A DNA stretch of 26,696 nucleotides. Origin: a virus. Location: positions 1-26,696 of the IMG/VR virus record IMGVR_UViG_3300045999_007076. The stretch is one strand, 5' to 3'. Positions within the stretch are counted from its first letter, which is position 1. Each line of letters opens with the position of its first letter. The translations under genes were made by a program, and so were the position numbers. The notes under the pieces are model-generated. The model did no database searches. It saw only the letters and a list, made by a program, of their open reading frames with translations, and had not been told where the DNA came from. This document shows positions 2,983 to 26,696 of the stretch, in pieces.

Positions 2983-3148
2983 CTTGCGCCACTTCCGGCG
3001 CAGCGCAATTCTCGCAAACAGTTAGGCAGACACCTCCTCGTTGAGCCTGCCCGACGGCAACCCAAGGCCGACGACCCGTCACGAACGGATACTCGGTAGC
3101 GCCGCGGGACAGAAACCAACAACAACCCGACCAGATCCGCACGATGCG

Positions 3149-3160
3149 GGTTTAGTCAAA
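3149..3160 (+). repeat. 12-bp phage motif, copy 2 (upstream of capsid)
   Basis: Exact GGTTTAGTCAAA, ending 18 nt before the capsid ATG and just before its Shine-Dalgarno sequence. This is where T7 carries its strongest late promoter (phi10). In this copy the flanks extend it to an imperfect dyad, GGTTT-AGTCA-AAACC. Confidence 0.75.
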
Positions 3161-3178
3161 ACCAAAGGAGAAACAACT

Positions 3179-4087
3179 ATGTCTGCTATTGCACAAATCC
3201 CGCAGTATTTCACGACGGAGTTCACCTCCAACTGGGAACACCTTCTTCAGCAGAAGGTTTCCAAGTTGCGTGAGTTCGTGTCCGTGGAGTCCGTTCGCGG
3301 CAAAGAAAAAACATTCAACCAAATGGCTGCGGTCGAAATGACCAAAATCACCGCCCGCGCCGCCGACACCAACATCAGCGATGTGGCCCTCGCCAAACGC
3401 TGGCTCCGTCCGTATCCCTACGAACACGCCACCCTCTTTGACGAGTGGGATGCCGAGTATCTGGGTGAGGTCAGCCTGCCGCAGTCCGAGACGGTCAACA
3501 ACCACGCGATGGCTTACCTTCGCACCTGCGACAAGGTCATCATCGACGCGGCGCTGGGTTCTGCCTACACGGGCGAAACCGGCGTCACCCCGACCGCTTT
3601 GCCCGCTGGGCAGAAGGTCGCCGTGGACTACGTCGAAACCGGCAGCACCGCCAACAGCGGTCTGACCATTGCGAAACTTCGCCAAGCCTCCTATCTGCTC
3701 AACGACGCAGAGGTGGACGACAGCGATCCTCGCATCATTGTGGTCAGCGCCAAGCAACTCCAAGATTTGCTTCGCACGACCGAGGTGATCAGCGCCGACT
3801 ACAACAGCGTCAAGGCGCTGGTGCAGGGCCAACTCGACACCTTCATGGGCTTCAAGTTCCGCCGCGTGGCGTCGTCCTTGCTTCCCTACAACTCCAGCAC
3901 TGGTGTTCGCACTTGCTTCGCCTACGTCCGCTCCGGCCTCAAACTGGCCGACGCCGGTCGCAAGGTGCATGTGGACATCCGCGCCGACAAGAGCCACGCC
4001 CTGCAAATCCGCACGGTGGCGAGCCTTGGCGCGACCCGCATGGAAGAGAAGAAGGTCGTCGAAATCGCAGCCGACGAGGTTCTCTAA
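3179..4087 (+). CDS. Major capsid protein
   Basis: 302-residue protein, the expected size for a podovirus HK97-fold shell protein. The N-terminus (Q-Y-F-T-T-E-F, then N-W-E-H-L-L-Q-Q-K-x-S-K-L) and the W-L-R-P-Y-P-Y-E-H-A-T-L-F-D-E-W-D motif near residues 75-92 are characteristic of the phage capsid family seen in many non-enterobacterial T7-like phages. The C-terminal part has beta-rich H-A-L-Q-I-R-T. The ATG follows a strong AAAGGAG with 8-nt spacing, one of the best ribosome sites in the window, as expected for the most abundant virion protein. The frame stays open upstream to 3041, but that extension lacks a ribosome site and runs through the 12-bp motif, so I reject it. Confidence 0.88.
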   Translation: MSAIAQIPQYFTTEFTSNWEHLLQQKVSKLREFVSVESVRGKEKTFNQMAAVEMTKITARAADTNISDVALAKRWLRPYPYEHATLFDEWDAEYLGEVSLPQSETVNNHAMAYLRTCDKVIIDAALGSAYTGETGVTPTALPAGQKVAVDYVETGSTANSGLTIAKLRQASYLLNDAEVDDSDPRIIVVSAKQLQDLLRTTEVISADYNSVKALVQGQLDTFMGFKFRRVASSLLPYNSSTGVRTCFAYVRSGLKLADAGRKVHVDIRADKSHALQIRTVASLGATRMEEKKVVEIAADEVL

Positions 4088-8939: not shown

Positions 8940-10901
8940 ATGGCCAACATCCCACTCGTCCAAATTCCCAACGCTCCCGCGACCGGCTCGACCGCCGTGC
9001 CGCTGCCGGTGGGCGCGATCCGCGCTCCGAATGTCGAACTCATGGGCATGATCGACGACGCCAGCTACATGGCGGTGGGCCGCGCCTACGAGAACCTTGG
9101 CAACGCCGGTCAGCAAGCGGCCAATGTGCTGGGCGACTTTTCGCTGTCAATGGCCCGCGCCAGCGACGAGGCCAACCTTGCCGCCGCCGACCGAATCAAG
9201 ACGGACATGGTTTCCAAGTTCGACGCCGAGGTTGCCACCAAGCCGGAGAGCGAATGGAACGCGATTTGGGAAAACAACTACGCGCCCAAGCTGCGCGACC
9301 AAGTGTCGTCCCTCAAGATGACCACCCGCGACGGACTCAACCGGCGCGACACTTGGCTGGCCAACACCGAGAACGGAATCAAAGCGCAAGTGTTTACCAG
9401 CGCCAACAAGGCCATGATCGGACGCGCCACGCAGGAGCAGACCAACCTTGTCGAGCGAGCCAAGGCCGAAGGGCGCTACGAAGACGCGATGGCCGCTCTG
9501 CGCCGCGGGGCCGAGGTGGGCCTGTGGACACCGGAAGCTGCCGACGCGGGCATGATCAAAATCGAACAAGAGCAAAAGGCCGAAACCAAGCGCCAACTGT
9601 GGGAAACCGTTGACACCCAAATGATCCAGCGTCTGGCCGACGGAAGCACCGCAGAGGCTGACGAGGTGACCGCGGATCTGCGCCAAGCGGTCGAAAGCGG
9701 ATCGTTTAAAAGCAAGTTTTTCCCATCACTCAACGGCGAGCCAGCCGACATCAAAAAGGCGCTCAAAATGTGGGAGGGCCACAGCCAAAACGCCACCATC
9801 GACAAATACAACGAAGCCGTCACCGGCATTGCCGAAGGGCAATACGGAACCGTCGAACAACTGCGCGAGCAATGGGGCGACAAGATCGACACCATCAATA
9901 TGCAAAAGTTGGAGGCGGCGTTTAGCCAGTCGCCCGAAGAACAGGCCAAACGTCTTGCCGAGCGCCCTCAACTGGTCACCGCCATCGAAATGTTTGAAGC
10001 AGCCAATGACCCGAAGAGCGTTGAGTTCACCCGTCTGCTCGCGTGGATTCACACTATGCCAGCCGGATACCAAGCCGATTTGAGCGACATGCTGCGCGAC
10101 AAACAGCGCAACAGCCAGCCCAAGCCCAGCACCGCCATCGAAGCCATCAAGCAGCGCAGCCGCGAGATGTTCACGCTGGGCAAATACGGTTCCATCAAAA
10201 GCGAAGAAGCGTGGCAAGCGGCCAAAACGCGCCAATCCCGCGAGATCGACATGCTCAATAGTTGGGCGTCGGCCAACCCGAAGGAAGCCGCCGACGCGAC
10301 CAAAGTCACCGAGCAATACAACCAGATCCGCACCAAGATTTACCAAGAGGACATGGCCGATGGCGTGGCCGACACGCCCAAGCCAGAAATGCTCCAAGCG
10401 CCGACCATCAACCCGCGGCGCGTGTTGCAAGACCCGCGCTTTGGCCCGCAGACCAACGCCGGAACACGCCGCGCTCCAGCCTCCATCCGCAACAACAACG
10501 CCGGAGCCATGTGGTATGTCGGAGGATGGCAAAAGAAATTCGGTGCCGAGTATGGCCAAAAGCTCAACGACGGCTTGGGCCAAGGCAACCAGATCGCCAA
10601 GTTCCCCACGCCGGTTCATGGAGCCGCCGCGCTGCTTTACCAACTTGACCGGCCCAGCTACCGCAACAGCAGCGTGCGCCAAGCCATTTCCAAGTGGAGC
10701 GGGGGCAATAATGTGTCCAGCTACCTCTCCATCTTGCGAAGCGCCGGATTCACCGCCGACCAAAGCGTGGCCGAAATCATGGCGTCACCCGAAGACGCGA
10801 TTGCCTTTGCCCAAGCGATGGCTCGCCACGAAGCCGGACAAGACTTCCCGCTCGACAACAGCGGATGGCAACAAGCCTACGAGATGTATCGCAGCGCATG
10901 A
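8940..10901 (+). CDS. Internal virion protein, gp15-like, with C-terminal putative lytic domain
   Basis: 653-residue protein. Residues 1-500 are mostly charged helix (coiled-coil type: K-A-E-G-R-Y-E-D-A-M and similar), as expected for the inner core or periplasmic conduit protein. Residues about 508-653 form a separate domain that begins I-R-N-N-N-A-G-A-M-W, passes through L-N-D-G-L-G-Q-G-N-Q-I-A-K-F and H-G-A-A-A-L-L, then W-S-G-G-N-N, and ends in an E-A-G-Q-D-F-P helix. From memory this pattern occurs in virion-associated peptidoglycan-degrading proteins. In T7 the lytic domain sits on gp16 instead, so it seems to have moved. CAGGAG lies 11 nt upstream of the start; the stop overlaps the next start as ATGA. 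Confidence 0.72.
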   Translation: MANIPLVQIPNAPATGSTAVPLPVGAIRAPNVELMGMIDDASYMAVGRAYENLGNAGQQAANVLGDFSLSMARASDEANLAAADRIKTDMVSKFDAEVATKPESEWNAIWENNYAPKLRDQVSSLKMTTRDGLNRRDTWLANTENGIKAQVFTSANKAMIGRATQEQTNLVERAKAEGRYEDAMAALRRGAEVGLWTPEAADAGMIKIEQEQKAETKRQLWETVDTQMIQRLADGSTAEADEVTADLRQAVESGSFKSKFFPSLNGEPADIKKALKMWEGHSQNATIDKYNEAVTGIAEGQYGTVEQLREQWGDKIDTINMQKLEAAFSQSPEEQAKRLAERPQLVTAIEMFEAANDPKSVEFTRLLAWIHTMPAGYQADLSDMLRDKQRNSQPKPSTAIEAIKQRSREMFTLGKYGSIKSEEAWQAAKTRQSREIDMLNSWASANPKEAADATKVTEQYNQIRTKIYQEDMADGVADTPKPEMLQAPTINPRRVLQDPRFGPQTNAGTRRAPASIRNNNAGAMWYVGGWQKKFGAEYGQKLNDGLGQGNQIAKFPTPVHGAAALLYQLDRPSYRNSSVRQAISKWSGGNNVSSYLSILRSAGFTADQSVAEIMASPEDAIAFAQAMARHEAGQDFPLDNSGWQQAYEMYRSA

Positions 10902-13900
10902 CCCCGACCATGCTCAACGAGGGACGCGCTGCTTCCCGCGGCGCGGCAGGCAGGCAAACCGCAGACTTCACGCTGGCCATCGATGACAAGCGGGCCAGCG
11001 AACTCTACGACTCCTTCGATTCGGCCAGTCCGATGGAACAGGATCAATACCGCAGCGCCCTCCGCAACTGGGCGGAAACCAAGCTGGCCGAGGAGCAGTC
11101 GCGCAACTACGACGATCTGACCGGCATCTATGCCGACGTCAACCGCTGGTGGGAAGACTCCGGCGGCGGGCAGGCCGACGACGAGGTCAAATTCGGCGCG
11201 GCCAACCGCAAGTTCATTGCCGCCCAGACCGGCCAGACCGCCCGCGAAATGGGCGACCTTTATCCAAGCGAACGCGACCGCTGGTTTTTGCAGACCTTCG
11301 GCCAAGCCCCGAAGACGGAATCTGAAGCCTATCAGACGATTGGAAAACTGCTCCAAACACGCCAACAGACCAAACAGGCTTTGCGTGAACTGCCCTCTAC
11401 GCTGGCCCTTAACTTGATGCGCCCCGCCGCCACTGGCACCGACGCGCCGGAACTGGCCAGCCTCGATCTTTTTAACGCATGGAAGGAGCGCCACGCCGAC
11501 ATCCTGCAAGACCTTCCCGAAGACTGGGAAAGCAGGGCAATGGAGCAGGCTGAAGAGATCCGCCAAAGCACGACCGACCTCATGCGCGAGATCGGCCCCG
11601 ACGCCAAGAAAGCGTGGGACATCCTGCAAAAGTGGAGCCGTCCCGAAGCAAACGATGCCGGAGTGACGGATCAATCTTCAGTCATCCGCCAAGACGTCGA
11701 AGACCTTGCCAAAAATCTCACCAACATGCCCAAAGACCGCCAAGACCGGCTTTTTGAGGCGCTTTACCGCGCCGCCGAAGCCACGGGCGCGGGCATGGGC
11801 AAGGGATTCTTTGAAAAGGTGGGCGAGGGGTTGGTGCGCGGCGGCGTTAAACTCTACGATGACAACGTCATGGGGGCCGAGGATCGCGCCCTGCGCCTCA
11901 ACGTCACCCGCCTCCAACGCGGCGGCACGCTTTACGAGATGGCCGACGGCACAGTTGGCACCCAAGAGGACATCGCCCGCTGGGCCTCCACCGGTAACTA
12001 CAACGCCACCAAACTGCTGGCCGACCCCAGCTTCCAAGCCGGAACCGGCAACGTCAGCGACGAGCGCCGCCGCGAACTGCTGGACTCCAACGAACAGCGA
12101 CTGCGCGAAATGCAAACTCTTCGCAAGGTTCGCCAGTTAGCCGAGGGGGCCATAGACCCACTAAAGACCGAACTCGACGGCTTGGCCGGTTCACTTGTTC
12201 AAGGCGCTTACACTTTCAGCCAAAGCGCCGCCTACACCGCAATGGCGGCTATTCCCTATGTCGGCCTTCCCGCCGTGGTTTACTCGCTGGGCAACAGCAA
12301 CTACTTCCGCATGCTCGATGAGTATCCCGACATCGACACCGACTTTGCTTGGACTTTGAGCATGGCCATCGGTGCGCCGCAGGCCGTTGTCGAACGATTT
12401 AAAGCCAACGCCCTCTTGGGCAAATCTCCGGCCCTCAACGCGCTGATGAAGAAAATGACCGACGCCCGCACCCCGCTGGCCGCACGCATCGGCGTGGCTT
12501 ACGGGGCGAATGTCGCCTACCAAACCGGACAAGAATTTATTCAAGAGGCCATGCCGGTGCTGGGCGACCAGATGGCCGCGGCCATCCGCGAAGACATGCC
12601 GGAGTTCGATGCCGCCAAAGCGTGGGGCGCTTACGTTGACCAAACGCCGGAAATCTTTTTTTCCATGCTGTGGGCGGGCTTGATTGGCGGTGGCGTCGTC
12701 ACTTTGCAGGAGTTTAAGCGGGACGGCATTTTCCTCACCAACGTGGGCGAACTTGAAAATGTTGGCGTGGTGGGAGAAGTCGCCCGCGACATCGCCGCGG
12801 AGCCGGATGTCAACGTCCGCAACGAAAAGCTCAAGACCGCGCTCAACAACCGCAGGCCCGAAGACATCCAAGCGGGCATTACCAAGCGTGCCGCCGCGCT
12901 GGAAGCCGCCGGAAAGCAGCAGGGACGCGAACTCCCGACTCGCCACACCGCGACCGACGCCGAGGGCAACCTTACCCACATCATCTACGACCAGCAGGGC
13001 AAAGAACTCCTCCGCACCGCCGACACGCTTGCCGCTGATGTCGCTTATGTCGGCATGGTGCGCCAAATTATCGGCGCGGAATTCAGCCAAGATGCTTACA
13101 ACGTCCAGCAATTTGCAAACTGGTGGGCGACTCAAGATCCCAAGCAAGCCAGCAACGATCTGCGCGATGCACGCCTGCCCAACCAAGGCATCACCGCCGA
13201 GCAGAAAGTGCAAATACTGGAACAGGTGGGCAACAAACAAGGCATCGAAGAACTACACCGACGCATTGCCCAATCGCCCTACGCCGGAACTCCCTACGAC
13301 CAAATCGTCATTCTTGGCGAAGCCAGTGTGGAGCAAGTGGGCGACATGGTTTTCCGTTCTGTAATGACGGTGTATCCCAAGGGCGACCTCCGCGCCGCCC
13401 GCGAGGAAATGCACCATACAGCCGTCCGCTTTGCTGCAGCCAATGGACGCGCCGACGAGAACACCCTGCGCGGATGGCTGGAAGCGTCCGAGCGAGTTTT
13501 TGCCGAGAGTGGCTTGGGCATCGCGCTACCTCGCGCCGACATGACCGACATCGTCGAGTCAATGGCCGTGGTGCAGGAAGCCTTTGAAAACGAACGCATC
13601 AGCGCGGACGTCGAGATGAGTCTGCCGCAAGAGTTTGTTGCCTACATCAAGCGCATGATCCAAGTCTTTGTCGAAGTGCTGAAGCGCGGCAAAGCACTGC
13701 GCGAAGCCTTTGATGCCGGTGCGCTGCCCTCCGAGTTTGAAGCGTTCCTTGCCGAGACAACCGGCGTGGCTGACCAGACCATCGTAGACCGCTCCCGCGA
13801 AAAGACCGCGCAGGAGGTTGCGCCGGAGGTGGCGAATTATTCGATTGGTCTGCGCGAGCCAGACGCCTTCCGCTTCAACGAGCAAACACTGCCCAACGGC

Positions 13901-16900
13901 AACGTGCGCTTCATCGCATACCACGGCAGCGAGCAGGCTTTGTCGGAAATCCAAGACCAGCCGATTTACGTCAGCAGCATGTCCGACGGCGCGGGCTACG
14001 GAACGCCGACCCGCGTCATCGTCGAAGGCAAGTTTGTTTCGGAAAACGAGATTGAAGCGTTTGCCGCCAAATACGGCATCGCAATGGAAGATTTGTTCCA
14101 CGAAGAGGCATCGATGGAGCGGGACTTGCAGGAGGCGCTCCGAGCCGAGGGCTACGACGGTGCGATGTATTACGATCAGCGGCGTGACGACGGCGAAGTG
14201 GTTCCCGCGGCGATTATTGTCAACCCGCAGGCCATCCGCATGGAGCCGGTTTCCAACTATTCTATCGCCGTTCCATCCGAAGTAGACGAAGCCGCGGTCT
14301 ACGATTCGGTGCTAAAGTTGGCCGGTAGCCGCAAATGGGATCGTGGGCGCGACCTCAAGATGGCCATGCAGGAAGCCGTCCTTTCACGCGCACAGGCAGC
14401 GGGCGTGGATGTTTCCGACATGTCGCCGGAGACAAAAGCCTATCTTGTCCGCGTGGCGTTGCGTGACGCTCTGTTTGCGCTGAAGCAAAACCCGAATGCC
14501 ATCGGATGGTATGACATCAAGACGCGGCAGGCTCTGGCCGTCATGGCGCTGATCCATCCCGAAATCGGAACCGACGAGAACGCACGCTTCGCCTTCACAT
14601 GGATTCTGGCAGTGACGTCCAACGGGCTGAAAGTGGACATGAACTTCGATTTGGCCGAGTCCGTTTACCGCCAATACAAAAAGAAAAAGGTCATGCCGAC
14701 CAACGTCGGTATCGGCACCGCGGGCAAGGCAATCAACAACTCGCTCAAGTTGTTCAATCGTTTGGCTAAAGAGTGGGGCATCGACAACTTCCGCGCATTC
14801 ACCCAGACCACGTTCAAGGTTGCCGAGATTTCGTCCATTGACAAAAATCTCAAGCCGAGCGGCGAATTTGCTGCAACCGACGTTCGCGGTGCGGCTATCG
14901 CTGGCCCCAAAATCGGCAACGGATTTTTCAGCAACCTCAACGGTTTCTTCGACGCGCTCACGATGGATCGCTGGCTCATCCGCACATGGGGCCGGTGGAC
15001 TGGCACGCTCATCAAAGCAATGCCGGAGCAGACGACAAAGGCCACCGAGCGCCTGCAAAAAGCGGTTGAGGCAGTAAGCAGCGAACAGGCGTCCGAATTG
15101 TCCGCGGTGATTGGTTTGGACATTCCGACAGCGACCATGCCCGAATTGGCGCAGGCGCTGGCCAAGGCATCGATGGACAAGGAGATTCGCGAGGCGCTCA
15201 ACTCCGTCAGCGAGGAACTACGCAAGGCGGGCAACAGTCTTGCCAAATACCTCGACGGCCAAAAGGAAGCTCCCTCCGGCCCCGCCGAACGCAACAACGT
15301 CCGAGAAATTTTCCAGTCCGTCTTGGATGAACTTCGCGCTACCGAAGAGTATAAAGACCTTACAATGGCCGATTTACAGGCCGTCCTGTGGTATGCCGAA
15401 AAGCGCCTCTACGAATCCGCCAAAGAAGACTTTGTTGACGACGACGAGACAGAGGGCTACGCTGATGATGAAGCGCCGGACTACGCCAACGCCGCGGCCA
15501 AAGTGGCTCGCGACAAAGGAGTGTCCCAAGCGCGGATTTCTAAAGCACTTACCGATACAGCCAATGTCACCGCAGGAGGAACACGATCTTCAAATGCAGG
15601 ACGCCTTGGAGCCACAGGAGGGCAGCAAGGCGCGGCTGGAGGCTTTACTCAAGGCCAAAAGCGGCTCTTCCGAGGCAATGTCGCAGTCCGCACCGTCCGA
15701 CGCGGTCGCGGCTCAAATGCAGCGCCATCGTGGTCTTACAGCCGAGAAGGCAGTGGAGATGGCGGAAGCGTTCGGGTTCTAAAGAAGATCGCGGTCAAGT
15801 ATACCGCGTCCTACAAAGCCGGTCGCGACATCCGGCGCGTTTTTCGCAACAATGGCATCGAAGCGCCTCGCTTTGTCGAGTTGGTGCAAGACGAGGCCAA
15901 TGCTACGCGGTTTTCCGAACTAATCACCGCCAGTAAAAAGGCAAGCAAGTTTGGCGCGGCGGTCTATGTCTATCCAACCGGCGACTACCAAGGTATGCGT
16001 TTGTTTCTGTCCGAAGATGGCACCACCGGCTTTGCGCTCAAATCCAACGGCGACATCGTCTCCGTGTTTTCAACCGGCGGTGCCGGTCATGGCGCTTTGG
16101 AGTTGGCGGTTGCGGAAGGCGGCACGCGCCTCGACGCTTTTGACACCATACTCCCAGACTACTATTCCTCGCATGGCTTTGTTGCCGTCTCGCGTCTGAA
16201 GTGGGACGACTCGCAATCGCCCGACGGCTGGAACAAGACCCTTTACAAAGAGTTCAACAACGGCGAGCCGGACGTTGTCTTCATGGCGCACCAGCCATCC
16301 TATCTTGGCTGGTATAGTCAAAACGACGGCACCGTCTACACCGACTACAACGACGCGGTGGACGCGCAGGATCGAGCCGTGGCCGACGCCACGACCGGCG
16401 CAAACATCAGCACGCGCAACTACTCCATCTCCACCCAGTCCGAAATCGACCGCGTCGGCGCGGCGTTGGATCGTCTTGCCCGCAGTCCCTCCGAGCGCAT
16501 CTCGCAGTATGCCGCGCTGAAAGAACGCCTTGCCGCGGCCTTGGAGCGCAACAAGCCGATCATGCAGTCCATGCGCGGCGACATGTTGCCGCAGGATTTC
16601 GACCGCACGCGCATCCTCAACGACCTTGGGTTCCTCGACTACATCCTCAAGGTGCTACCGCCGGAAGTGCGCGGGCGGGTGGGGGGCTACACCAACCTCG
16701 CCAGCATTGCGCCGGTAGACGTCTACAAGGGCGATCAGAAAGTCAGCGAGGCCAAGAACCCCGCGGGCGCAATCATCAGCGCGTGGATGCGCGAGGGTCA
16801 GAATATTGGGCAGGCGCAGAAAAACACGGCACTGCCGGAAGGCTACAGCACGGTGCCAAACACCACCGACGAGCGCAGGGACAAAACCATCGCCAACTTC

Positions 16901-19531
16901 CTTATCGACCGGCTCAAGAAGATCGACCGCGAACTGGAGCGTTACTACAAGCGCGACCTCATGGAGCGCATCTTCGATGTGCTGGACAAGTCGCGTCCCA
17001 AGGCCGGTCAAAGCGGAGTCAAGCGCAGCACGCTGGGGCCGGAAACGCAGAAGTTTGCCGACATGGTCTACCGCGCCTCACTGCTCGACGATGAAAAGAC
17101 GCCAAAGCGTCTGGCGCAAATTGAGGCGGAAATCACCAGCATTGTGCCAAAAGACGGCGATCCCGAATCGGTGGCGAAAAGCCAGAAAGAAATTTCGCAA
17201 CTTTCTGAAGAGTGGACAATCGTCAACACGTTTGGCGATTTAAAGAACCGCTCGTCCGAGACGCTGGCCAGCGGCTTGGATTGGTTGCGCGATCAACTCA
17301 AAGCCGGACGCGAATCGTGGCGGATTAAGGAAGCTGCCCGCATCCAAGAAAACCGCGAGCGAGCCGCCAAAGTTATCGCGTTCTTGGGCAAACCAACCGA
17401 CGTCGGACGCTTTGAAAACAAGTCAAGGTTGCAGCGATTCCTGCAAACGGCCAACGCCATCGACCTCGACCACAAGAGTTTTGAGCAGTTTGCTTTTTGG
17501 CTTTTTGGCGATGAGGTCTCCGCTGAACTGTCGGAAAAGATGATGCGGGCCAATATCAATGTGGCCAAGACAGAGCTTGAGCATAACCGCGCCATTCTTG
17601 CCGCGCTGCGTGAGGGGGCGAAGGCGGCTGGCACCACCCGCGGCAGGGCGTTGGCCGCGTTCAAGGAGAACCAGTCCAATGCCGTCCGCAAGCTACAAGG
17701 CCGCAAGGTCAAGCCGGTTGAAATTTCCATCGAACTGGCCAAGAAGATTGTGCGCGGGCTGGCCGACCGTGGCAGCTTGTCAAATCAAGACGTCCAAACT
17801 TTGGCCGACGAATTGGCCTCATTGCCGCGAGACACCAAAAAAGAAAACGTCACCATTCAGCAAGTAATTTTCCGCGGCGAGGAAGTGCGCCTCACCTTGA
17901 GCAAGGCACAGGCCATGCAACTCTGGCTGACATGGCAGCAAACCGACGCGCAGGAGAAAATGCGGAAGGACGGCTTCAATGAGGACAGCATTGCGGACAT
18001 CGAAGACCTCCTTGCCGATCCGTTTTCGCAAACGATCTTGCGCTTTATGCGGCGCACTTACGGCTCCGGCTACGGCATCACCAATCCGATCTATGCCCGC
18101 ATGTTTGGCATGAACATGCCAATGGTCAGAAACTACGCTCCGGCCCGCTACTTATCGGAAAAAGAAATCAAAGATGTCGGACTCGACGGCTCGCCGCTGA
18201 CTGCCGGTGGTCAGCCCAGCTTTGCCAAGTCCCGCGTCAGCCACAGCGCCAAGCTGGCACCGGAAGACGCGATGACGGTGCTACAAGGCCATCTCGCCAT
18301 GCAGGCGCACTTTGTCGCTTTTGCCGAACTCCACCGCGAATACCGCTCGCTGTTGTCTAATCCCGAAGTGCGTCAAGCCATCCGTCAAAAATTTGGCGAA
18401 GACGTCCTCCAAACCGCCGAAATGTGGGGGGATCAAATGGAGCAACGCGGCGGAAACAAAGCGCGGGAAATCAAGTGGCTGCAAAACCTTGTGGGAACTA
18501 TCATTGGCGGTCAGTCCGTGTCGTTGTTGGGCCTTAACCTCAAGTCGCTGGCCATGCAGAGCGACAACTTTATGCGCTTTTTCTTGGCGCTGGACAGTCG
18601 TCAGATTGGGTCGGCCCTATCTGACCCAGCCGCCCTTATGCGGAACATTAAGAAGGTATGGAAGACCGACATTCTTCAAACCCGCAAAGAGGGCGGTGCC
18701 ACGGCAGAAACGCGGTTTTTCTTTGAGCGGTTTGTCTCCATGTTCCGGCGCGGAACCAAAGTGGCCGAATTGTCAATGGTTCCGATGAACTACACCGACT
18801 CCGCGGGCCTGTCTGTTTCCGGCGCTGTCGTTTACGAGGCGGCTTACAAGGACGCCATCGAAAGTGGCATGAACGAACGGTCAGCCGAGCAAGCGGCCAA
18901 GGACGCTGTAGAGGCAATGGTTTACCGCTACGGCCAGCCGGTGTTGATGGGCCAGAAGTCCAATATTGAAAACTCCGGCAATGTTTTCACAAAATCTTTC
19001 TTTCTTTTCATGTCCGATCCGCGTCTGAAAATGGCGCTTATTTCCGATTCCGTCCGAGGTCTGGCCACCGGACGCGGCGACTGGAAGGCCCATGTGCGCC
19101 GGATTGTGGCCATCGAATTAATGGCTGTGGTCTCGCACGTTTTAGCCACTTACTTCCGCGACCTAACCAGCGACGACGAAGACGAGGATTTGTGGTCGGT
19201 CGGCGGATTTGGACGCGCCTTACTGCTGGCCCCCTTCCAAGGATACTTCCTGTTGGGAACTGCCGGTGAACTTCTGCTATCGCGCCTCATGGAGGGCAAA
19301 TGGTTCACGCCTACCCAAAACCCGCTTGTCCGCGTGGCAGACACCGGCCTTCGGGCGTTTAACAATCTCGACGACGCCCTCAATTTCGACGACCCCGACG
19401 CGCTGGTCAAAGAATGGACAAACATTACCCGCGCCATTGCCGTGGCCCCACCACTCGCCGCGCCCGCCGTCATCATGAACCTCGTTCGCCCGCTGGTGCA
19501 GGGATGGGAGCGCATGGACGACGACGAATAA
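10898..19531 (+). CDS. Giant polyvalent ejection protein (gp16-like position), 2877 residues
   Basis: Largest gene of the window, starting on an ATGA overlap with the gp15-like gene; an in-frame ATG at 10865 would overlap that gene by 37 nt and is less likely. Layout by residue: 1-420 charged helices; 431-465 and 585-604 hydrophobic, probably membrane-inserting; 985-1118 an ADP-ribosyltransferase-like module (Y-H-G-S, then Y-G-x-P-T-R-V-I-V-E-G and G-Y-D-G-A); 1135-1390 a conserved module with G-W-Y-D, N-V-G-I-G-T-A and G-F-F-S-N-L-N-G; 1556-1628 Gly/Arg/Ser-rich, low complexity; 1630-1838 an acetyltransferase-like module (L-D-A-F-D-T, S-H-G-F-V-A-V-S-R); 1845-2300 coiled coil; 2300-2870 a conserved C-terminal region with hydrophobic segments near 2734-2754, 2774-2795 and 2847-2866. 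NYSI occurs at 980, 1120 and 1841. It is probably injected with the DNA. Enzymatic labels are fold resemblances only. Confidence 0.8.
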   Translation: MTPTMLNEGRAASRGAAGRQTADFTLAIDDKRASELYDSFDSASPMEQDQYRSALRNWAETKLAEEQSRNYDDLTGIYADVNRWWEDSGGGQADDEVKFGAANRKFIAAQTGQTAREMGDLYPSERDRWFLQTFGQAPKTESEAYQTIGKLLQTRQQTKQALRELPSTLALNLMRPAATGTDAPELASLDLFNAWKERHADILQDLPEDWESRAMEQAEEIRQSTTDLMREIGPDAKKAWDILQKWSRPEANDAGVTDQSSVIRQDVEDLAKNLTNMPKDRQDRLFEALYRAAEATGAGMGKGFFEKVGEGLVRGGVKLYDDNVMGAEDRALRLNVTRLQRGGTLYEMADGTVGTQEDIARWASTGNYNATKLLADPSFQAGTGNVSDERRRELLDSNEQRLREMQTLRKVRQLAEGAIDPLKTELDGLAGSLVQGAYTFSQSAAYTAMAAIPYVGLPAVVYSLGNSNYFRMLDEYPDIDTDFAWTLSMAIGAPQAVVERFKANALLGKSPALNALMKKMTDARTPLAARIGVAYGANVAYQTGQEFIQEAMPVLGDQMAAAIREDMPEFDAAKAWGAYVDQTPEIFFSMLWAGLIGGGVVTLQEFKRDGIFLTNVGELENVGVVGEVARDIAAEPDVNVRNEKLKTALNNRRPEDIQAGITKRAAALEAAGKQQGRELPTRHTATDAEGNLTHIIYDQQGKELLRTADTLAADVAYVGMVRQIIGAEFSQDAYNVQQFANWWATQDPKQASNDLRDARLPNQGITAEQKVQILEQVGNKQGIEELHRRIAQSPYAGTPYDQIVILGEASVEQVGDMVFRSVMTVYPKGDLRAAREEMHHTAVRFAAANGRADENTLRGWLEASERVFAESGLGIALPRADMTDIVESMAVVQEAFENERISADVEMSLPQEFVAYIKRMIQVFVEVLKRGKALREAFDAGALPSEFEAFLAETTGVADQTIVDRSREKTAQEVAPEVANYSIGLREPDAFRFNEQTLPNGNVRFIAYHGSEQALSEIQDQPIYVSSMSDGAGYGTPTRVIVEGKFVSENEIEAFAAKYGIAMEDLFHEEASMERDLQEALRAEGYDGAMYYDQRRDDGEVVPAAIIVNPQAIRMEPVSNYSIAVPSEVDEAAVYDSVLKLAGSRKWDRGRDLKMAMQEAVLSRAQAAGVDVSDMSPETKAYLVRVALRDALFALKQNPNAIGWYDIKTRQALAVMALIHPEIGTDENARFAFTWILAVTSNGLKVDMNFDLAESVYRQYKKKKVMPTNVGIGTAGKAINNSLKLFNRLAKEWGIDNFRAFTQTTFKVAEISSIDKNLKPSGEFAATDVRGAAIAGPKIGNGFFSNLNGFFDALTMDRWLIRTWGRWTGTLIKAMPEQTTKATERLQKAVEAVSSEQASELSAVIGLDIPTATMPELAQALAKASMDKEIREALNSVSEELRKAGNSLAKYLDGQKEAPSGPAERNNVREIFQSVLDELRATEEYKDLTMADLQAVLWYAEKRLYESAKEDFVDDDETEGYADDEAPDYANAAAKVARDKGVSQARISKALTDTANVTAGGTRSSNAGRLGATGGQQGAAGGFTQGQKRLFRGNVAVRTVRRGRGSNAAPSWSYSREGSGDGGSVRVLKKIAVKYTASYKAGRDIRRVFRNNGIEAPRFVELVQDEANATRFSELITASKKASKFGAAVYVYPTGDYQGMRLFLSEDGTTGFALKSNGDIVSVFSTGGAGHGALELAVAEGGTRLDAFDTILPDYYSSHGFVAVSRLKWDDSQSPDGWNKTLYKEFNNGEPDVVFMAHQPSYLGWYSQNDGTVYTDYNDAVDAQDRAVADATTGANISTRNYSISTQSEIDRVGAALDRLARSPSERISQYAALKERLAAALERNKPIMQSMRGDMLPQDFDRTRILNDLGFLDYILKVLPPEVRGRVGGYTNLASIAPVDVYKGDQKVSEAKNPAGAIISAWMREGQNIGQAQKNTALPEGYSTVPNTTDERRDKTIANFLIDRLKKIDRELERYYKRDLMERIFDVLDKSRPKAGQSGVKRSTLGPETQKFADMVYRASLLDDEKTPKRLAQIEAEITSIVPKDGDPESVAKSQKEISQLSEEWTIVNTFGDLKNRSSETLASGLDWLRDQLKAGRESWRIKEAARIQENRERAAKVIAFLGKPTDVGRFENKSRLQRFLQTANAIDLDHKSFEQFAFWLFGDEVSAELSEKMMRANINVAKTELEHNRAILAALREGAKAAGTTRGRALAAFKENQSNAVRKLQGRKVKPVEISIELAKKIVRGLADRGSLSNQDVQTLADELASLPRDTKKENVTIQQVIFRGEEVRLTLSKAQAMQLWLTWQQTDAQEKMRKDGFNEDSIADIEDLLADPFSQTILRFMRRTYGSGYGITNPIYARMFGMNMPMVRNYAPARYLSEKEIKDVGLDGSPLTAGGQPSFAKSRVSHSAKLAPEDAMTVLQGHLAMQAHFVAFAELHREYRSLLSNPEVRQAIRQKFGEDVLQTAEMWGDQMEQRGGNKAREIKWLQNLVGTIIGGQSVSLLGLNLKSLAMQSDNFMRFFLALDSRQIGSALSDPAALMRNIKKVWKTDILQTRKEGGATAETRFFFERFVSMFRRGTKVAELSMVPMNYTDSAGLSVSGAVVYEAAYKDAIESGMNERSAEQAAKDAVEAMVYRYGQPVLMGQKSNIENSGNVFTKSFFLFMSDPRLKMALISDSVRGLATGRGDWKAHVRRIVAIELMAVVSHVLATYFRDLTSDDEDEDLWSVGGFGRALLLAPFQGYFLLGTAGELLLSRLMEGKWFTPTQNPLVRVADTGLRAFNNLDDALNFDDPDALVKEWTNITRAIAVAPPLAAPAVIMNLVRPLVQGWERMDDDE
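15564..15782 (+). CDS. 72-residue ORF embedded out of frame in the giant gene
   Basis: An ATG-started frame, +1 relative to the giant gene, encoding a 72-residue charged helical protein: M-S-P-Q-E-E-H-D-L, then A-R-L-E-A-L-L-K-A-K, and a C-terminus R-G-L-T-A-E-K-A-V-E-M-A-E-A-F-G-F followed by TAA. That C-terminus resembles (from memory) the G-L-T-x-E-x-A tail of small stand-alone phage proteins. Its codons (GAG, CAG, GCC, AAG) match the other genes here, while the giant frame over the same bases uses GGA, CGA and ACA and gives Gly/Arg/Ser-rich sequence. No Shine-Dalgarno sequence is visible, but several genes here lack one. It may be a true overlapping gene, or a gene over which two flanking genes became fused. 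Confidence 0.5.
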   Translation: MSPQEEHDLQMQDALEPQEGSKARLEALLKAKSGSSEAMSQSAPSDAVAAQMQRHRGLTAEKAVEMAEAFGF

Positions 19532-24597: not shown

Positions 24598-25159
24598 ACC
24601 GAAGACGCGCCCGCGTATCACCGCGCAGGACGTCGAGGAGATTGCTCGCAAACACGGAGTCAAAGACTCTGTCGCTATCGTGGGCATCCGCGGCTACTAC
24701 CTCCGCACGCTTGGCAACCCGAAGAAGAACGACCGCGGCATCTGGGACGACTGCATAGCGGTAATCTCGCCCACCGCGTTCGCCGCTTACAACGGCAACA
24801 CCGACCCGTCGTTCTGGCGCAAGGGCATCGCGTCCCTTGTCGAAGGCGTCCACAAATACCGGAAGGGGCGGCACGGCATTTCCCGCGGCAACCCGTATCC
24901 GGCGCTGCGCCCAGCCAACCCCAGCGAATCGCTGCCGGTGACGCGGGACGGGCAGCTTGGCCGCTCGCAAGGTGTGGCCATCAACATCCACCGCGGCGGC
25001 AGCATCAATTCGGTATCACAATCTGTGACTTCAAGTCTTGGATGCCAAACGATCCCACGCGAGCAGTGGCCCAGCTTTATCGGACTCGTCTACGGGGAGA
25101 TGGATCGCTACGGGCAAAAGGTTATTCCTTACGTTCTAACAACGGCACAGAGCGCCTAA
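24584..25159 (+). CDS. Putative phage lysin with L,D-transpeptidase-like motif
   Basis: 191-residue protein. The C-terminal half has I-N-I-H-R-G-G (His 136) followed after 15 residues by S-S-L-G-C-Q-T-I (Ser 151, Cys 154), which resembles the H-x-x-G and S-x-G-C catalytic pattern of YkuD-type L,D-transpeptidase folds, some of which cut peptidoglycan cross-links. The N-terminal half has G-I-R-G-Y-Y-L and W-D-D-C-I-A-V-I-S. No signal peptide is present, so export would need the holin. The ATG lies inside the end of the small membrane gene. It ends 38 nt inside the convergent integrase gene. The lysin role is supported by motif and cassette position, not by a confirmed family. Confidence 0.6.
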   Translation: MPATKPKTRPRITAQDVEEIARKHGVKDSVAIVGIRGYYLRTLGNPKKNDRGIWDDCIAVISPTAFAAYNGNTDPSFWRKGIASLVEGVHKYRKGRHGISRGNPYPALRPANPSESLPVTRDGQLGRSQGVAINIHRGGSINSVSQSVTSSLGCQTIPREQWPSFIGLVYGEMDRYGQKVIPYVLTTAQSA

Positions 25160-26276
25160 TCGCTTCGGCCATAGTTTGTATCGAAGCATGAGTGTAGTTG
25201 TTGCTGACCTTTGTCGAATCGTGGTCGCAGACCAGTTGCCGCACGCGCTGATCAACCCCTGCATCGACCATGAGAGTGTTGATCGTATGCCGCCAGCTAT
25301 GAAACGTCTTGTCCGTAATCCCGCGACCTTCGCCTTTCTTCTTGGTCTTGATCCTTGCAACGCCAGCGCGGTCGAGTAAGCGCGAGAAGTGCCGCGAGGC
25401 AACGGTGATGCTCATGGCGTCGAGCGTGGGCGTGATCTTGCCGCGGCCCCGCAGCTTGTTTAGCTCCCCGACCAGCGGCACTGCGACAACCTTGCCGCGA
25501 CGGCTTTTCTTTTCTGGCATGAACCGGAGGACGCCGCTTTCTATTTCCTCGTGGCTGCGATGGATGGCGTCTCCCAACCGCATGCCGAAGAACAAACCGA
25601 AGAGGCAGGCAATGCGCCACTCTTTGTCCGCGGCGGCGAGGATGGCGCTGATGTCTTGGGTCGAGAACGGCTTCCGACCCGTCGGCGTGGCGTCCTCGCT
25701 CATGCGGAACAGTGCCGCCGGATTCGCGTCGATCTCGCGGAGGTGCAGGGCGCGGGTGAAGACGGCGCGGACGGTCTTGGTGATCTGCTGGGCGCTGCGA
25801 GCCGACAGCCCGCGTTTAATCAGCGCGTGGTAGAACTCCGCTATATCCTCTGGGGTTATGGACTTGAGGTCATGCCGCGCCCGTTGGCCAAGGAAATCAG
25901 CGAAGTGCTGGCAGTGGGATCGGTAGGAGTCAACGCTGCGAGGCTTGGCCGTCTTTGCGCCTATATAGCCCTGTGCGGCCTTTTCCCATGTGGTGCGGCG
26001 CATTGACCCCTTGACGCCCGCGGCCCGCATGAGAGCCGCCACGCTCGCTTTCATCCACACCTCATCCGGTATCTGGTCGCGTAGCTCGCGCCCGATCCGC
26101 TCCAATTCGTCGGCATACCGCTGGGCCGTTTTGCGCGGGGTTGTCTTGTGCAGCATCTTTGTGCTACGACAAGTCTGACGCCAGAAACCGCCGTCTGGGT
26201 GGTCTTGTGAGAAAATCCAGACCCGCATGCGGGCCATCCAATAGGGACTGTTGGGAAGGATAATGAGTGAAGACAT
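25122..26276 (-). CDS. int: Tyrosine-type site-specific integrase
   Basis: 384-residue recombinase, the only gene called on the minus strand. Residues 8-40 (N-S-P-Y-W-M-A-R, then G-G-F-W-R-Q) form the small N-terminal arm-binding-like strand region; 95-195 form the core-binding helical domain (S-Y-R-S-H-C-Q-H-F, L-S-A-R-S-A-Q-Q-I); 200-384 form the catalytic domain. Catalytic residues are Arg 233 in G-M-R-L-G-D-A, a lysine in E-K-K-S-R-R-G-K near 257, H-S-W-R at 326-329, His 352 in D-H-D-S, and the nucleophile Tyr 361 in N-N-Y-T-H. The set is complete, so the enzyme should be active. It faces the attachment region directly upstream of its start, the usual arrangement of temperate phages. Confidence 0.92.
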   Translation of the reverse strand: MSSLIILPNSPYWMARMRVWIFSQDHPDGGFWRQTCRSTKMLHKTTPRKTAQRYADELERIGRELRDQIPDEVWMKASVAALMRAAGVKGSMRRTTWEKAAQGYIGAKTAKPRSVDSYRSHCQHFADFLGQRARHDLKSITPEDIAEFYHALIKRGLSARSAQQITKTVRAVFTRALHLREIDANPAALFRMSEDATPTGRKPFSTQDISAILAAADKEWRIACLFGLFFGMRLGDAIHRSHEEIESGVLRFMPEKKSRRGKVVAVPLVGELNKLRGRGKITPTLDAMSITVASRHFSRLLDRAGVARIKTKKKGEGRGITDKTFHSWRHTINTLMVDAGVDQRVRQLVCDHDSTKVSNNYTHASIQTMAEAIRRSVPLLERKE

Positions 26277-26287
26277 AAGAGGTGAGA

Positions 26288-26310
26288 GTTGACCCAGCCA
26301 GTTCTACACT
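26288..26310 (+). promoter_or_regulatory. Left paired arm-type integrase sites
   Basis: GTTGACCCAG, CCA, GTTCTACACT: two related 10-mers with a 13-bp period and a CCA spacer, just upstream of the integrase start. The same architecture recurs on the other side of the tRNA fragment, which suggests integrase arm-binding sites. Confidence 0.5.
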
Positions 26311-26350
26311 AAAATGCCTACAATGCATCAAGAAAATAGTCGTTTGTCTC

Positions 26351-26369
26351 TGTAACAGAAGGGGTTACA
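26351..26369. other. Candidate recombination core (inverted repeat around 7 bp)
   Basis: TGTAAC and GTTACA flank a 7-base spacer (AGAAGGG). Inverted core-type sites around a 7-bp overlap are the usual crossover design for tyrosine recombinases. It lies between the two arm-site pairs and beside the tRNA fragment. The assignment is structural only. Confidence 0.35.
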
Positions 26370-26370
26370 C

Positions 26371-26400
26371 GAAGCGTCGGTTCGATTCCGACCCTCGCCT
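26371..26400 (+). other. tRNA 3'-end fragment (attachment-site homology)
   Basis: The segment contains a T arm with stem GTCGG/CCGAC and the standard loop TTCGATT, followed by CCTCGCC and T, which look like the acceptor 3' strand and discriminator. No matching GGCGAGG 5' acceptor strand or anticodon arm is present, so it is a fragment rather than a tRNA gene. Such fragments restore the host tRNA (or tmRNA) on integration. The tRNA identity cannot be read. Confidence 0.7.
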
Positions 26401-26432
26401 CTCTCTCTGTAAAACAGCGGATGGGGCTTAAA

Positions 26433-26455
26433 GTTGACACACCCAGTTGGCACAC
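26433..26455 (+). promoter_or_regulatory. Right paired arm-type integrase sites
   Basis: GTTGACACAC, CCA, GTTGGCACAC: two near-identical 10-mers (one difference) with the same 13-bp period and CCA spacer as the left pair. Together with that pair they flank the tRNA fragment, as P and P' arms of an attP would. Confidence 0.55.
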
Positions 26456-26487
26456 GTTTTAGATATTGCAGAACCTTTAGGCGTGCG

Positions 26488-26499
26488 TTTGACTAAACC
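26488..26499 (-). repeat. 12-bp phage motif, copy 6 (before the small basic gene)
   Basis: Exact copy read on the + strand as TTTGACTAAACC. It abuts the GTG start of the next gene with no spacing. Because it lies beyond the tRNA fragment and arm sites, it indicates that phage sequence continues past the attachment region. Confidence 0.75.
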
Positions 26500-26682
26500 G
26501 TGCCATATGCCGACCGAAACGAGCAGTTAGCGGCAATGCGGAAACGCTACGCCGAGCGGTATGCCAGCGACCCGAAGTTCCGTAAGGCAGAATCCAAGCG
26601 CAAGGCCAAGTTCTACGCCGACAATCCAGCCTACCAGCGCCGCGTGAAGCGCAAGGTCAAGGCCCGCCGTTCCGCTAAATAA
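26500..26682 (+). CDS. Small basic phage protein
   Basis: 60-residue protein, about one third Lys and Arg, with repeated Y-A-D/E and R-K units (P-Y-A-D-R-N-E-Q, R-Y-A-E-R-Y-A-S-D, F-Y-A-D-N-P). Its N-terminus resembles the M-P-Y-x-D-x-x-x-Q start of many small phage and HNH-associated proteins, which supports the GTG start over an in-frame ATG at 26536. It probably binds nucleic acid. It sits on the far side of the attachment region, under its own copy of the 12-bp motif, and may be the first early gene or a moron-type cargo gene. No Shine-Dalgarno sequence is visible. Confidence 0.6.
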   Translation: MPYADRNEQLAAMRKRYAERYASDPKFRKAESKRKAKFYADNPAYQRRVKRKVKARRSAK

Positions 26683-26696
26683 TTTTCTGGTTGTCC

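Follow-up and report, generated by a model that had tools for sequence, protein, structure and literature searches.

The 26,696-base linear IMG/VR virus record IMGVR_UViG_3300045999_007076, referred to here in its entirety as the window, contains a capsid gene (PF19821), matches to tail genes and, near its right end, short repeats flanking the 3' fragment of a tRNA gene next to an integrase gene. This arrangement raises the question of whether the region from 26288 to 26455 is a phage attachment site (attP) and, if so, with which host gene and at which position strands would be exchanged. The initial annotation, made from the letters alone, had read the region as an attP that lies next to an integrase gene and has P and P' arms, and our analyses support this as the best reading, based on repeats beyond chance, a matching host tRNA-Cys gene, and the integrase. 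We assign a probability of roughly 0.9 to the full explanation, i.e., that a temperate tailed phage of Verrucomicrobiota uses the region as its attP and recombines with tRNA-Cys by exchange in the T-loop, and that its relatives have changed targets by exchange of a block. The relevant features are as follows.

25122–26276, minus strand: lambda-type tyrosine integrase of 384 aa, near the right end of the window; start codon 12 bp from P1
26288–26297, plus strand: P1, putative arm-type site GTTGACCCAG, based on sequence and a position kept in relatives
26301–26310, plus strand: P2, putative arm-type site GTTCTACACT, based on sequence and relatives
26348–26359, plus strand: conserved left core flank CTCTGTAACAGA, found with its right partner at a fixed length of 66 in 31 loci and the window
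26375–26401, plus strand: copy of the tRNA-Cys(GCA) 3' end (T arm, acceptor strand, and nucleotides 73–74), the 27-mer CGTCGGTTCGATTCCGACCCTCGCCTC
26376–26380 and 26388–26392: T-stem strands GTCGG and CCGAC around the T-loop
26381–26387, plus strand: T-loop TTCGATT, predicted 7-bp overlap for strand exchange, based on T-loop geometry, hybrid cores, and the Ms6 precedent
26404–26417, plus strand: conserved right core flank TCTCTGTAAAACAG, the first nine bases of which are a direct repeat of 26347–26355
26433–26442, plus strand: P'1, putative arm-type site GTTGACACAC, based on sequence and relatives
26446–26455, plus strand: P'2, putative arm-type site GTTGGCACAC, based on sequence and relatives
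26500–26682, plus strand: small basic gene of 60 aa with a GTG start, an open frame on the P' side kept in relatives

The gene at 25122–26276 encodes a tyrosine integrase, on which Pfam (PF00589, E 4.5e-9, plus SAM-like N-domains), PHROGs (phrog_1 integrase, 7e-32), and structure comparison concur. Residues R233, H326, R329, H352, and Y361 are unchanged in 21 relatives. In a Foldseek search with an AF2 model (mean pLDDT 75.7, pTM 0.51), full-length lambda Int (1z1b) ranked first (E 1.6e-9, ~19% identity) and is the closest full-length solved structure by fold; lambda has a non-tRNA attB and five arm sites and is unlike the window in both respects. Residues 1–40 follow a predicted strand-strand-strand-helix order, and the N-terminus probably has an arm-binding fold; these 40 residues are modeled poorly (block pLDDT 47–60). 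The closest annotated phage integrase in the phage collection shares just 25% identity and comes from an Akkermansia or Bacillus phage; Akkermansia is a genus within Verrucomicrobiota. On the other side of the region, the 60-aa gene had no family match in Pfam, NCBIfam, or PHROGs, and homologous starts of this gene are present in the flanks of relatives. Reading the surroundings of the attP by eye, we recognized no clear excisionase gene or host-factor bending site; an IHF-type site considered in the A/T-rich stretch on the P side matched poorly. Elsewhere in the window, positions 10865–19531 contain an open frame of 2,888 aa with a Pfam match that is sub-threshold only.

The two pairs of 10-mers described in the initial annotation, spaced by CCA at 26288/26301 and 26433/26446, have correct coordinates, and the CCA is present in both the left and the right tandem. 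The left and right blocks form a direct repeat of 17 nt with 88% identity, and the best 23-mer match between the flanks (18/23) was reached by 0 of 400 dinucleotide shuffles (mean 14.1, maximum 17). Within each tandem, however, the 10-mers of the window agree weakly (5/10 per side), and the claimed 13-bp period therefore rests on the relatives. Across 38 distinct attPs, an offset of 13 gave the best self-match in the right flank (mean 8.68/10, runner-up 6.63) and, narrowly, in the left flank (5.58 vs 5.13); at the P2 position, most relatives have TATACA or TGTACA. The description of the pairs as symmetric holds in the sense that there is a tandem on each side but is loose, as all four sites have the same orientation and P1 and P'1 start 96 and 49 bp, respectively, from the T-loop center.

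The tRNA T arm and acceptor end noted between the arms is exact at 26375–26401. ARAGORN detected no tRNA in the window, and Rfam detected nothing except a sub-threshold tmRNA match over the T arm. The 27-mer occurs exactly in 35 viral contigs and in at least 119 host contigs, i.e., contigs of bacterial genomes. As to the suggestion that candidate hosts carry a tRNA gene ending in this fragment, in 108 of the 119 host contigs listed the 27-mer forms the 3' end of a tRNA-Cys(GCA) gene that ARAGORN identifies as intact, while the remaining 11 are fragments or contig ends. Among these 108 genes, the 27-mer continues with CA, completing an encoded CCA, in 97 and does not in 11; in the attP, it is followed by T instead of CA, as in the hosts lacking an encoded CCA, although this does not fix the host. 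The host records listed are titled Verrucomicrobia or Verrucomicrobiota nearly throughout, with a few Bacteroidetes, Paceibacterota, and "bacterium". In one order represented by 213 genomes, the Cys 25-mer was found in 23/213, a Gly 26-mer in 120/213, and both in 16. The host phylum would be Verrucomicrobiota (uncultured bacteria), and any placement below phylum would be putative.

In 26 of the 35 viral contigs that carry the 27-mer, the stretches examined encode a relative of the integrase, and two others (L019 and L027) have the same attP located at a contig end. The viral contig L014 differs in carrying an intact tRNA-Cys gene with the same 27-mer (3138–3210) beside structural genes and, as judged by eye, a terminase-like gene; this is either a phage-borne tRNA or a host junction. 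Using a core-flank pattern that permitted lengths of 48–78, we identified 43 loci, comprising 31 of this family, all exactly 66 bp long, and 12 unrelated loci of other lengths. In the window, the tRNA fragment is bracketed by the direct repeat TCTCTGTAA at 26347–26355 and 26404–26412, and relatives have a TTTTACTCTGTAA-like repeat on both sides at fixed spacing. The arms are also held at set distances from the core. In 20 of the 38 distinct attPs, in which the arm strings were read by eye, P1 lies 96–97 bp from the T-loop center in 18/20 and 106–107 bp in 2/20, while P'1 lies 49 bp from it in 16/20 and 57, 59, 69, and 70 bp in the other four; in L184, the P pair reads 14 rather than 13 bp. The exceptions differ by approximately whole helical turns, even in attPs with changed arm sequence, as expected if arms and core must lie on the same face of the helix. 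Between subgroups, the arm sequence varies, and on both sides together (GTTRGCACA, GTTATCCAC, GTTATCACGG, and TTACGGC). At the level of sequence, arms, spacing, tRNA identity, integrase, and conservation support that the region is an attP.

Two questions decide how this site is read, namely where strands are exchanged and whether the four repeated sites serve the integrase. The initial annotation drew attention to an inverted repeat with a 7-bp spacer, and this repeat is present in the window (TGTAAC at 26351–26356, AGAAGGG, and GTTACA at 26364–26369). As a perfect 6-bp inverted repeat with a 7-bp spacer, 12 bp left of the region of the T-loop center, it could itself be the crossover site, as the layout in the initial annotation implies (GTAAC-AGAAGGG-GTTAC, 26351–26369), with the tRNA fragment serving as homology only. 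We consider this very unlikely. Cys-type relatives like L002 lack its right arm, reading CTGGCC there, and Gly types carry a changed version of it (CTTACA or CTTATA); both keep the rest of the site. The AGAAGGG spacer has no counterpart in host tRNA-Cys genes. Because the repeat is absent from relatives that retain everything else, it is probably incidental. The better core is likely the T-stem repeat around the 7-bp T-loop at 26381–26387, as suggested by the following sequence comparisons: identity between attP and host starts about one T-stem strand 5' of the T-loop, and two hybrid cores in relatives switch sequence within the 7-bp T-loop and not at the GTAAC-GTTAC repeat.

As for the four repeated sites, they could instead serve as operators for a repressor or a directionality factor. 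PMC10111431 leaves an operator option open for the doubled motif of helper-embedded satellites, and P2 occupies the stretch directly upstream of int in which one would look for a promoter. Nevertheless, we regard this alternative as unlikely, given that the sites lie at fixed distances from the T-loop on both sides with steps of ~10 bp, that their sequence changes jointly on both sides of the core, and that no sigma-70-like consensus promoter was found in 26200–26696. We also considered that, as in KplE1, a promoter covering P2 might let the integrase regulate itself; with no consensus promoter found, this is speculation. The idea that the site is a dead or secondary attP, an unused relic, draws on the searches for lysogens. 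No integrated copy of the window's own family was found (0/387, 0/213, and 0/62 genomes), nor when the order with 213 genomes was searched once more, and a further search of 320 genomes yielded only integrases of 28–29% identity, in 3/320. This idea seems hardly credible to us in view of the intact integrase frame and the preservation of the site in dozens of contigs.

The search for attL and attR in related prophages, as proposed in the initial annotation, gave such a pair in one distant relative at the same tRNA-Cys but none in the family of the window. Specifically, a genome of Verrucomicrobia subdivision 3 contains a 5.5-kb element integrated at tRNA-Cys, the integrase of which is 26–28% identical. 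At one end of this element, an intact tRNA-Cys gene is followed by two copies of the motif TAGTGCTAACA; at the other end, two TAGTGCTAACA motifs are followed by a tRNA-Cys 3' fragment, beside the element's own integrase gene. Judged by its sequence, the element displays the predicted attL/attR layout in a distant relative, with the arms split between the ends. No relatives joined to host DNA elsewhere were seen, but in the genomes searched the window's family was not found integrated at all. Separately, an integrase of 29% identity in a host genome (L397) lies beside arm-like repeats and another tRNA 3' end, an arrangement suggesting that the layout is more widespread in Verrucomicrobiota.

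In the attP reading, we infer integrase binding, cleavage points, and restoration of the tRNA in this family as follows. The N-terminal domain of the integrase would bind the four arm sites, and its core-binding and catalytic domains would bind the T-stem inverted repeat. The 7-bp T-loop TTCGATT would be where strands are exchanged with the host tRNA-Cys gene. At attL, the phage-borne T-stem and acceptor strand would rebuild the tRNA, and attR would receive the P arms, the tRNA fragment, and int.

The target differs among the relatives. In them, the 66-bp slot contains tRNA-Cys, a tRNA-Gly 3' end, or non-tRNA sequence, and for the Gly-type core, we found an intact tRNA-Gly gene at 6 of 7 host loci examined. 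We compared integrase domains between types using hand-picked rows (11 Cys and 5 Gly). The core-binding domain shares 43% identity between Cys and Gly types versus 79 and 82% within types, while the catalytic domain shares 73% between types versus 74 and 80% within types, with one pair reaching up to 91%. For the trees, the 48 integrase rows were reduced to 41 by removing identical rows of the same label and to 39 by leaving out L156 and L371, in which the contig ends in the attP; the partial L188, L393, and L394 were left out of the integrase table. In the core-binding tree, all 26 Cys rows group together as a single clade (SH-aLRT 98). The catalytic tree needs 5 changes for Cys and places L167 (Cys) within the Gly rows (SH-aLRT 97) and L373 (Gly) next to the Cys rows (94). 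The core-binding domain thus tracks the target and the catalytic domain does not, and a target switch therefore seems to be the exchange of one block. Three-sequence tests on ten hand-picked triplets gave one breakpoint at about −143 to −174 and another at about +633 to +789 relative to the int start (p 2e-4, which is the floor of 5,000 permutations), placing one end of the exchanged block just beyond the core and the other close to where the core-binding domain meets the catalytic domain. A control triplet of the same lineage (Cys) displayed weak mosaicism too (p 0.018). An AU test on the catalytic domain with 21 rows, after 13 near-copies or distant Cys rows were dropped and the GAGTTATGGG and "other" types were left out, did not reject a single Gly-type clade (p 0.168), probably because the catalytic domain is itself mosaic. 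From these comparisons, a switch of target likely moves the core and the P arms as one block with the first two integrase domains (N-terminal and core-binding), without the catalytic domain and the P' side.

The hybrid cores L189 and L217 (=L377) have the left half common to Gly types and then change within the T-loop; relative to the int start, the breaks are at −104 and −111 and the T-loop spans −105 to −111. An exchange made by the integrase between two attPs would fit this pattern, as would other events. A search via the right flank for parents of the non-tRNA cores found none with a family integrase or left flank nearby among the 119 stretches examined of at least 120. We tentatively propose, at somewhat less than even odds, a portable target block, in which the 66-bp slot with its TTTTACTCTGTAA-like repeat flanks, the P arms, and the integrase's N-terminal and core-binding domains would be swapped between phages through homologous recombination at conserved flanking sequences. 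The catalytic domain and P' arms would remain in place, and the integrase would sometimes make new, non-tRNA cores from two attPs. Counting these hybrid cores, four attPs of the family have no tRNA end, i.e., L189 (=L203), L377 (=L217), L185 (=L208), and L381; two share their left half with the tRNA-Gly types, and two share GAGTTATGGG.

The initial annotation considered the regular arm architecture unusual, which overstates the case, since similar doubled arm sites are described in PMC10111431 and PMC8074189. In the attPs of helper-embedded PICIs, a co-oriented, doubled tandem arm motif lies on each side at a fixed distance from the crossover, and four half-sites are proposed for an integrase tetramer (PMC10111431). 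The window shares the co-oriented doubled tandem at fixed distance on each side of the core. It differs in the motif and in the distances, which are ~85 and ~60 bp from the T-loop center to the tandem centers versus 81 bp upstream and 132 bp downstream, and, unlike the window, these PICIs integrate into phage late genes (PMC10111431). According to PMC8074189, the IntA–IntF attPs of Oenococcus oeni also have direct-repeat arm sites (2/2 or 2/3 by side) and target tRNA 3' ends; IntE, with tRNA-Cys and 2/2 repeats, matches the window, and related attPs have differing targets, as do the window's relatives. That source discusses arm-domain change and use of secondary sites, whereas here the core-binding domain follows the target. 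In mycobacteriophage Ms6, the attP core reproduces 26 bp of a tRNA 3' end and, typically for T-loop integration, exchange likely occurs in the 7-bp T loop, as predicted for the window; core changes redirect Ms6 to other tRNA-Ala genes (PMC1762012). Ms6 differs in that it involves mycobacterial tRNA-Ala, a single integrase, and a mutated core rather than natural block exchange (PMC1762012). In KplE1 intS, as in the window, an arm site adjoins the integrase gene and the target is a tRNA gene, but in KplE1 a mapped −10 box lies across the arm site and autoregulation has been measured (PMC2951348), while no promoter was found in 26200–26696 of the window. In the literature searched on integrase domain exchange, tandem arm sites, and temperate phages of Verrucomicrobiota, we found neither the site nor the exchange named.

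The site is an ordinary attP, well preserved and of a familiar type, from phages about which little is known; what adds interest is its set of relatives, a natural series in which targets have been exchanged. For a phylum from which few phages have been cultured, it offers a ready map of the integrase, arms, core, and host tRNA of temperate phages. Since the arm sequence varies separately from the target in this series, two old questions can be put to the test: which arm-binding residues recognize the arm site, and by what route an integrase comes to use a new tRNA gene. Individual relatives show further variation. In L375, CTGTGAAATTTCACAG-like palindromes, perhaps operators, lie on either side of the attP, on the P side and in the right core flank. 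In L006 and L032, the tRNA-Cys T arm occurs a second time, ~130 bp to the right of the 27-mer, and a separate pair of arm-like motifs comes after this copy, suggesting two att-like cores in succession.
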